64,000 bases of DNA from Amphiura filiformis (taxonomy: Eukaryota; Echinodermata; Ophiuroidea; Amphilepidida; Amphiuridae). This document shows positions 28,801-49,264 of this stretch, in pieces. Every line of letters starts with the position of its first letter. The first letter of the stretch is position 1. The notes below the pieces were generated by a model. That model was not told where the DNA came from. It made no database searches and was given only the letters and a program-made list of their open reading frames with translations. The DNA lies in the NCBI RefSeq assembly GCF_039555335.1, contig NC_092642.1:9558752-9622751 (forward strand). The letters are read 5' to 3'. A program made the position numbers and the translations under genes.

Positions 28801-31800
28801 GAAAATGTCTTTTAATTCAAAGTGAGGCTAGAGTCACTTGTACAACCAAACCCAATGGTGTATGAGTGCTAATGTCCTCAGATAGTAACTGCTGATTATA
28901 TTCTCTGGCCTCTCAAAATATGCTGGGTCAGACACCCAATTAGCTATACTCTATATATCCAGCTCATCTGCATTGATTAGGGATGTAATTCTTCAGGAAA
29001 TTTCCTGATTTCAGAAAGTTTTGCTTGGATCTTCCCTGTACAAAGTAAGTATTTTCAGGAAATGTAAAAGCAGTTTAAGGAAATTGTGTCAGTGCTTGTT
29101 TTCATCCCTGCATTATGACAAATACTTACGGCATGAAACATGGAATACTGTTGATGTTATGACACAAACACCATCTGTAGGTATTTTCCTCTAAATAATA
29201 CCTAAAACTGGGTGGTCAAAAACTATAATTTCAATTTGAACTGTGGTCAATTTTGCTTAGCTCTGTTACTATGTAGATTACATTGTAATTGTTTCAGAAT
29301 TGGCTGATTAACTCTAATTATGCCAGTGCTTTTTAACAAAGATGAGCAAATTACTAAAGAAACAATTTTGTTACTTTCAGATCACTCTGTGTTGGTATGG
29401 AAGGTGGATCAAGAAAATGACACTAATTATGGTCAACCACAGAGGGCGCTCAAGGGTCACAGTCACTTTGTCTCTGATGTTGTCATCTCCTCAGATGGTC
29501 AGTTTGCCTTGTCCGGATCATGGGATAAGACACTTCGTCTTTGGGATCTCAACAAGTAAGTCGGTGAACCGAAAGACCCAAAGCCTTGATTTTTGCTGGG
29601 TACATTGTATTATTGAAGTACCAGTACATTATAATCGTCAATCTTGTCAAGATGAGAATTTAAGTCAAATACATTCTTAACTAAACATTTTGATTACAGT
29701 AGGAAAAAAGTATGGTTTATAAATACGATTGTCTAAAAGTATAATATTTCTTCAATGCCCGCATCACGTGTTACCTGTTCCATGGGGACCGCTATCTAGT
29801 CATAATCGTCCCATCCAATGGTTCTGGTGTCAACGTGGGCAGATATTAATGTTGTTGCTGTCTGCCGGATAAGTTTCAGATGATGAGCTTATCGGGTGAA
29901 TTGTGACCAACAAAAGTCTACACATGTACTAGTTAAAAACGTCAATAAAAAGTTCCTTTTTTGAAACAGATTCTCCTGAATGTAACATCTGGAAGTGAAT
30001 GTGGAACAGGAGATGTTGACCAAACCAAACAATTCAATTTCCACCTGCTCATTAAAAACAAAACTTTAATGTTTCATCCAGTGCATCCACCATTATTAAT
30101 TCAAAGTAAAAAAAAAAAGTAAAAAAGTGCATTTCTCGCAAATTTTGTGTGAATGCTCCTCTATATTAGGTAGTTTCAAAATGTCAAGCATTTTGTTCAA
30201 ATAATGATTTCCTCATCTCTTCCTCTTACTCAAATACAGCGGTACCACAGCTCGTCAGTTCATCAGCCATGAGAAAGATGTCCTTAGCGTAGCCTTCTCA
30301 GCTGACAACCGTCAGATTGTGTCAGGAGCCATGGACAACTCCATCAAGCTGTGGAATACACTGGGAGTGTGCAAGTACACCATCCAGGTAGGTGTACCCA
30401 CAAGGGTTATAGGAACTTGTGCTTTGAAAACTACAGGTGAACTGTAAATGTGGCTATTCTTGTTGAAATCCATAGACCCCCCTTTGGAAGACATAACCTT
30501 TGAACATCTTCCAAACAGGTAGTGTGAATTTAAATTGGATTACCTGAATGGTCGACTCCATTTGAAATCTTCACCCCCCTGTGTGGGAGATTAAGACATG
30601 ACGTCTTTCACGGTGGGATTTCAGTAAGGCCCGGCAAAAAACGAGATCTCGCTTTTCACGCCGTGATTCTCGCTATTAACCAACTATCTCGCTTTTTAAA
30701 AAAAGTTTCCAAGCAGTGCACTTACTATAAAAATGTTGCTTTATGCCATAAAAGTTCGCCGAATTCCATTAAAATGAAGTTCCAACTACGCCAAAGTGCA
30801 GAATTCAACAGCATTGCAAGCACATGTCGAGTGAAAAAGCCATGCAATTACTCAATAAAAACTGACATTTCATTTCAAATGAGTTCAAGTTTAGGCCAAA
30901 TATCATTATGTTTATTGAATTACTGGACTATTTTGACTATAAAACATAATTCAAGGTCAACTTTTGTCACTTTTTTCTTCGATACTGGCCGGCCATCGGC
31001 AGGTTTATTTACATCTAAACATTGTTCTGACAATAGAGGGCAGCAAATATTTTTGTGGATTTTTATTTATTTATTTATTTTTGATTTTTCGCATTTTCGG
31101 GCGCTTTTGAAAGCTTCTCGTGCCATTTTTCGGGGGAAATCTCGCTTTTCTCGCTTTTCAAAATTTTGGATCTCGTTTTTTACTTCAAAAAATTGCGTTT
31201 TTTGCCGGGGCCTAGATTTCAGGGGTGGAATTTCGTAAAGTGCCACAGGAGTCCAAATGGATTCTCGCAAGAGAGTTTTGCGAGAGTCCATGGATTCCCG
31301 TAAGGCCCTTCGCACTTTAGTTTCCTGTTTACCGCCCGCGTCCAAAATTGAAAATCTCAAAATAATTAATTATTTTATTTTTATTTCTAATTTTCTCCTT
31401 TAAAATAACTTTCAACTACATCAACTTGCCATTTTCTGACTTTAATAATATCAACAATAATGATGAATAAACAAAGAGTACAACTCTTCCTTGACTTATT
31501 TATAAAATCAAATATTGTTGTGAAATAATTAAATGCCCGCCCTAGTCAAAATGAGTTGAAGGTTGCTTGTAATAGTTCAAACTAAATAAAGAAAATAAAA
31601 GATAATTAATAATTAAAAGTCACCTCGTCCCTTTTTCAAAATCTTTAACAGGAAACTAATACCGTAATCAAGTGCGAAGGGCCTAAATGGATTCTTGTTG
31701 TACAATCTTGCGGGAGTCCAAAAGGTATTATATGTAGGCCTACGTAAAATGCATTCAAACAAACAAATAAACTAACAAAGTTAAGTTTTTAATAATATGT

Positions 31801-49264: not shown

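Follow-up and report, generated by a model that had tools for sequence, protein, structure and literature searches.

Nine blocks of the RACK1 introns of Amphiura filiformis are, with a probability that we put at about nine in ten, box H/ACA snoRNA genes that lie within introns and belong to the SNORA3 (ACA3) family. Some or all of these genes are putatively functional; they are predicted to guide pseudouridylation of 28S rRNA and appear to have arisen by duplication within the host gene. They were found in a window of 64 kb, by which we mean the whole stretch of DNA analysed. The RNAs would be cut out of the spliced RACK1 introns and bound by dyskerin and its partners, and would then guide modification of 28S rRNA. 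The 5' pocket of all nine would place the U equivalent to human 28S U3899 for isomerisation, and the 3' pocket of five copies (family A) would do the same for the equivalent of U3938; the other four (family B) would retain the 5' guide only. A plausible scenario is that the set grew by duplication within the host gene, the RNA block being conserved as the flanks diverged. That the RNAs are expressed, bind dyskerin and direct modification in the animal is inferred, as is the order of the duplications.

Nine SNORA3-like blocks in the RACK1 introns

The exons of the host gene join into a single open frame, separated by GT...AG introns, and the stop codon is at 49264. Comparison with PDB chains identifies the spliced protein as RACK1 (best E 1.3e-171), for which GNB2L1 is presumably an older name, and WD40 repeats are found in it. 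Its scores are 573 bits with the best PDB chains, presumably vertebrate, and 508 bits with the Drosophila entry 4v6w. The host gene and the nine blocks are as follows (a copy is named below by its family and first position).

22691..49264, + strand, RACK1 host gene, coding part (splicing to an open frame; PDB RACK1 sequences; WD40 repeats)
22691-22808, 29381-29555, 30240-30387, 34022-34117, 43067-43177, 47909-48049, 49100-49264, + strand, RACK1 exons (one frame)
28824..28951, + strand, SNORA3-like H/ACA RNA, family A, intron 1, tail box ATA (RF00334 53.1 bits, gathering 51)
32078..32207, + strand, SNORA3-like H/ACA RNA, family A, intron 3 (RF00334 37.8 bits, below gathering)
42504..42633, + strand, SNORA3-like H/ACA RNA, family A, intron 4 (RF00334 42.5 bits, below gathering)
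43267..43395, + strand, SNORA3-like H/ACA RNA, family B, intron 5 (RF00334 35.8 bits, below gathering)
44450..44578, + strand, SNORA3-like H/ACA RNA, family B, intron 5 (RF00334 34.2 bits, below gathering; match 44447-44526, the 5' part)
46949..47077, + strand, SNORA3-like H/ACA RNA, family B, intron 5 (RF00334 33.1 bits, below gathering; match 46946-47025, the 5' part)
47599..47727, + strand, SNORA3-like H/ACA RNA, family B, intron 5 (RF00334 33.3 bits and ceN100 29.4 bits, both below gathering)
48224..48353, + strand, SNORA3-like H/ACA RNA, family A, intron 6 (RF00334 38.2 bits, below gathering)
48869..48998, + strand, SNORA3-like H/ACA RNA, family A, intron 6 (RF00334 39.0 bits, below gathering)

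Exactly nine instances of the 14-base word GAGGCTAGAGTCAC are present in the window, always on the plus strand and spanning 28824-48882, and their starts are the first positions of the nine RNA features above. Allowing up to three mismatches gives 11 matches (the nine exact ones and two with 3 mismatches) against 1.67 expected, a number reached by none of 100 shuffles. Counted from this word to three bases past ACA (ATA in A28824), with the 3' ends deduced from the sequence, the blocks are 128-130 nt long, the size originally predicted. Their positions and the exon splicing also bear out the earlier placement of one copy each in introns 1, 3 and 4, four in intron 5 and two in intron 6; intron 2 has zero copies. 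A covariance model built from the nine recovered the same nine on both strands of the 64 kb, where it gave no tenth copy (next best E = 0.29).

Searched at curated cut-offs, the whole window has one Rfam match, RF00334 (SNORA3/SNORA45), at 28821-28951 with 53.1 bits. Lowering the cut-off yields RF00334 matches at all nine places, the other eight scoring 33.1-42.5 bits; the gathering cut-off is 51 bits, so that one copy passes and eight fall below, and two of the four B matches are confined to the 5' part. These eight are 69-91% identical to the passing copy, A28824. Human SNORA3A and SNORA3B lie in RPL27A. On sequence grounds we assign the nine blocks to the known SNORA3/ACA3 family, Rfam RF00334. 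The idea of an unknown H/ACA family is rejected, as Rfam names RF00334, and the original prediction, which knew of no H/ACA set repeated through RACK1 introns, is corrected in so far as the family is a known one: SNORA3/ACA3 is recorded from chicken RPL27A introns in excerpts of a chicken snoRNA catalogue (PMC2653536).

A search for other snoRNAs in the RACK1 introns gave none at the gathering score anywhere in the window. Between 27000 and 50000 a few box C/D matches appear, at scores far short of their cut-offs; the first 4 kb of intron 1 were covered at the gathering score only. Used by themselves as Rfam queries, one 3' hairpin of B and one of A gave no match. The C. elegans family ceN100 (RF01607) gives weak matches at five of the nine places, including 29.4 bits at window 47595-47726 against a gathering score of 80, and the alignment there displays a 5' hairpin motif, AGAGUCAC...GUGCUA, common to ceN100 and SNORA3. 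The two are probably relatives, to judge from this motif. Rfam lists ceN100 without a clan and SNORA3 in CL00022. Viral contigs were also scanned: a pattern scan for animal rRNA gave 0 matches, the 5' hairpin scan returned 44 stretches, and the nine-copy model made one partial match (E 0.066).

Several other repeats were noted in the window. A tandem array in intron 3 (window 32243-33591; 54-base unit, 25 copies, 98% matches) begins 36 bases past the end of copy A32078. Intron 5 carries an inverted repeat of about 115 bases (window 43840-43957) that looks like a short foldback element and draws sub-cut-off miRNA matches on both strands; miRNA precursors were rejected, the best matches (at most 54.8 bits) lying at 43831-43969, in this fold-back, and all being below family cut-offs. 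In window 1-18000, many short open frames on both strands share recurring peptides, for example GQRSLRGHFRYKTK and GISFYTGSDPLMTFDPK, and a repeated element therefore seems to occupy much of that part.

Box H/ACA anatomy and two forms of the 3' hairpin

The blocks have a hairpin-hinge-hairpin-tail layout with H and ACA/ATA boxes in place. The H box (ANANNA) is ATAGTA, ATATTA or AAAGAA in all nine, and the tail box, three bases from the deduced 3' end, is ACA in eight copies and ATA in one (A28824), exactly as first noted. The 5' hairpin has a lower stem UGAGG/CCUCA, followed by a pocket and by an upper stem that starts from CACU/AGUG; the right arm of the pocket opens with GCUA, 14 nt ahead of the H box in every copy. 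Standard pairs fill 95.6% of the cells of this hairpin (15 pairs, 9 copies).

Beyond the hinge the copies take two forms. In family A (28824, 32078, 42504, 48224 and 48869; mutual identity 88-98%) the lower stem of the 3' hairpin is GCUGAUU/AAUUAGC and standard pairs fill 98.6% of cells (14 pairs, 5 copies). The stem of family B (43267, 44450, 46949 and 47599; mutual identity 93-98%) is CCUGAU/RUCAGG, unlike family A from the hinge on, with standard pairs in 93.1% of cells (18 pairs, 4 copies). Both stems are thus those of the original prediction, except that AAUUAGC is not kept throughout A: A42504 has AAUCCGC and hence a U.C mismatch. Over the whole block, A and B are 68-74% identical, and BLAST of A against B aligns only 60-70 nt, the 5' part up to the hinge, at 78-81%. 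The two 3' hairpin forms therefore stand, and the alike 5' halves point to one family with two versions rather than to two separate ones.

Covariation had been named earlier as a check on the helices. There are no compensatory changes among the 15, 14 and 18 pairs: the copies are so similar that no pair is altered at both positions, and the nine copies consequently give the helices no covariation support. The proposed structure is supported by the Rfam match and the box spacing. The earlier H/ACA reading finds its support in the layout, the boxes, the 14-nt spacing in nine of nine copies and the SNORA3 matches at all nine (eight of them sub-cut-off).

Guide pockets and predicted 28S targets

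The 5' pocket (left arm CUAGAGUC, right arm GCU) is identical in all nine copies and fits 28S GAGC[UU]GACUCUAG. Targets were scanned among 1086 U of human rRNA and snRNA, and not in Amphiura filiformis's own. The human 28S used is 80-95% identical over the main stretches to a C-to-T-converted eukaryotic 28S (L001) when C is read as T in both, and the 5' target region is present in the Rfam eukaryotic LSU consensus. L001 is itself an odd record: NZ_BMSY01000046.1, filed as Streptomyces aureoverticillatus, is a eukaryotic 28S (Rfam LSU_rRNA_eukarya, 504 bits) in which nearly every C reads T, as after bisulfite treatment, and it looks like contamination of a public assembly.

In these human RNAs the best site of the 5' pocket is GUUGAGC[UU]GACUCUAGUC with all three right arms (that of A28824, that of the other four A copies and that of B). 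The pairing as scored has 10 left pairs (one G-U) and 3 right; the outer two left pairs would draw on lower-stem bases, and 8+3 is therefore the realistic pocket count. In a shuffle test that allowed three registers, the score of the site was reached by 6 of 300 shuffled guides with the right arm of the four A copies and by 0 of 300 with that of B. All 12 guide columns of the pocket are invariant, against 30 of the 42 other gapless columns of the 5' hairpin. The ceN100 consensus also has the 28S site as its best, yet 117 of 300 shuffles reach that score.

The 5' site lies 158 nt after the first U of UAACUAUGACUCU, which we take to be helix 69, and the 3' site discussed below 197 nt after it. 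If that U is human Psi3741, the two sites are 3899 and 3938. The excerpted article of Taoka and others (PMC6182160) lists human 28S Psi3737, 3741, 3743, 3747 and 3749, the spacing of which agrees with the U positions of the UAACUAUGACUCU motif, together with Psi3899 (100%) and Psi3938 (93%); the excerpted main text names neither SNORA3 nor SNORA45 as guide (PMC6182160). Two numberings of human 28S are in use, according to excerpts of PMC5597630, and that of Taoka is used here.

A very unlikely alternative is that the 5' pocket serves 18S rRNA, at GGUAAUUCUAGAG or GGUGACUCUAGAU, instead of 28S. These two sites score 9.0-11.5 with the A and B right arms and up to 13.0 with the Rfam SNORA3 consensus, for which the 28S site scores 12.5, in a register one base shorter. 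That register, however, would start the guide 13 nt from the H box and not 14, the 18S scores are below that of the 28S site (12.5) with all three right arms among the nine copies, and the excerpted chicken table assigns the two ACA3 homologues 28S sites only (PMC2653536).

The 3' pocket of family A (left UAUUC, right CACC) has its best site among the human rRNA and snRNA at GGUG[UA]GAAUA, with 5+4 pairs. This site is 39 nt downstream of the 5' site in 28S and is human Psi3938 in Taoka numbering. The match alone is not above chance, since 75 of 300 shuffles reach its score, and with this site the pocket stands 13 nt from the box, as against 14; the predicted assignment to 3938 rests on the published site. 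The 3' pocket of the Rfam SNORA3 consensus as drawn misses 3938, and 288 of 300 shuffles reach its best score. Invariant columns make up 9 of 9 in the guide of the A 3' pocket and 40 of 49 among the others. Fitting both 28S sites, family A therefore looks like a double guide.

Family B looks like a 5' guide only. No target of its 3' pocket was found in the human rRNA and snRNA, where the best scores of its two variants are also attained by 246 and 75 of 300 shuffled guides, and 15 of 19 columns of this pocket are invariant against 40 of 43 in the rest of the B 3' hairpin. Few changes are seen overall, and these column counts hint at, without proving, selection on the guides and no selection on the B 3' pocket. 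It is also conceivable, but in our judgement unlikely, that family B is a new guide in which the SNORA3 5' half has been joined to a foreign 3' hairpin for a lineage-specific rRNA, snRNA or mRNA site, the RACK1 introns evolving guides by hairpin exchange at the hinge.

Probable duplication in the host gene and comparison with known systems

The flanks of the copies bear on their origin. Among the ten pairs of A copies the blocks are 88-98% identical, and in nine pairs both 60-nt flanks are 44-55% identical, which is the random level (mean 47.5, highest of 200 being 59); the flanks of the tenth pair, A28824 and A32078, are 61 and 59% identical. In this pair the BLAST alignment runs past the block by 50 nt on the upstream and about 28 nt on the downstream side, and in A32078/A48224 by 23 nt upstream; the remaining A alignments begin no more than 5 nt from the block. 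The flanks of family B are mosaic, such that copy 46949 shares about 390 nt with 47599 on its left side and about 100 nt with 44450 on its right. Such shared and mosaic flanks fit DNA duplication with recombination or conversion inside the gene.

Nine alike copies within 20 kb, of which the A copies have the block but mostly not the flanks in common, as insertions would, might also be a SINE, a MITE-like repeat or a snoRNA-derived retroposon merely resembling snoRNA genes. This we consider very improbable. All nine are on the host strand and in RACK1 introns, with none in the other 37 kb of the window; none of them shows an A tail (runs of A close to the 3' end do not exceed 3) or a target-site repeat (the 30-nt flanks have words of at most 4-6 nt in common, where the random mean is 5.9). 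Similarity that runs past the block, as among the B copies and in one A pair, points to duplication at the DNA level, and the 5' guide columns are invariant.

Duplicated snoRNA genes, our preferred reading, need not all be active, and it is compatible with this reading, if somewhat doubtful, that the copies are truly derived from SNORA3 with one or a few working and the rest decaying. The ATA tail box of A28824, the U.C mismatch in the A42504 3' stem, and the B copies, which have no recognisable 3' guide and a 3' pocket more variable than the rest of the hairpin, would suit such decay. Against it, both boxes and an invariant 5' pocket are present in all nine copies, and the A blocks have stayed alike while their flanks are mostly at background, a pattern that recent gene conversion could also give.

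The closest known counterparts of these candidate snoRNA genes are in chicken. An offset of 490 between chicken and human 28S numbering holds for the excerpted chicken sites of E2 (3340) and ACA54 (3311), whose human sites we take to be 3830 and 3801; if it holds in general, chicken 3409 and 3448 are human 3899 and 3938. Excerpts of the chicken snoRNA catalogue (PMC2653536) give two ACA3 homologues in RPL27A introns: GGgACA41, predicted to act on 28S-3409 through the 5' pocket with 7+3 nt, and GGgACA42, predicted to act on 28S-3448 through the 3' pocket with 5+4 nt. These predictions, which we found after the scan, agree with the present ones in the 39-nt spacing, the pockets used and similar pairing lengths. 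Like the RACK1 set, as far as the excerpts go, the chicken RNAs are intronic, are of similar length (130-131 nt) and have a 5' hairpin close to GAGGCUAGAGUCAC...GUGCUA, and SNORA3/ACA3 shares with it a 5' and a 3' pocket for 28S sites 39 nt apart. The RACK1 set differs in its host, in having nine copies and not two, in the two predicted guides of each family A RNA, where the chicken table lists one site each, and in the unlike 3' hairpin of family B. The C. elegans ceN100 RNA resembles the RACK1 copies in its AGAGUCAC...GUGCUA motif, aligned over the same block, although the match is weak.

Intragenic duplication is, in the same excerpts, the source of almost all chicken snoRNA paralogues, and about 90% of chicken H/ACA RNAs are singletons (PMC2653536). 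Cases of cis duplication in chicken (PABPC4 introns 6, 7 and 10; a gas5-like host) resemble the RACK1 set in having paralogues across introns with the guide regions kept; the RACK1 set differs in its nine copies, four of them with an unlike 3' half. The excerpted chicken table also places U95, a box C/D RNA, in GNB2L1 (PMC2653536). A small literature search returned no report by title of SNORA3 in RACK1, which is a thin basis for calling the placement unreported.

The view of how H/ACA RNAs work is unchanged by these observations, and the family and its target sites are already known. What appears to be new, in that we know of no earlier report of it, is the RACK1 host, the local number of nine copies and the version in which the 3' hairpin has been replaced. 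This gives an old guide RNA family a second host gene related to translation, and nine neighbouring copies with an unchanged 5' guide and two unlike 3' hairpins offer a clean case for the study of snoRNA host change, multiplication, and guide loss or gain.
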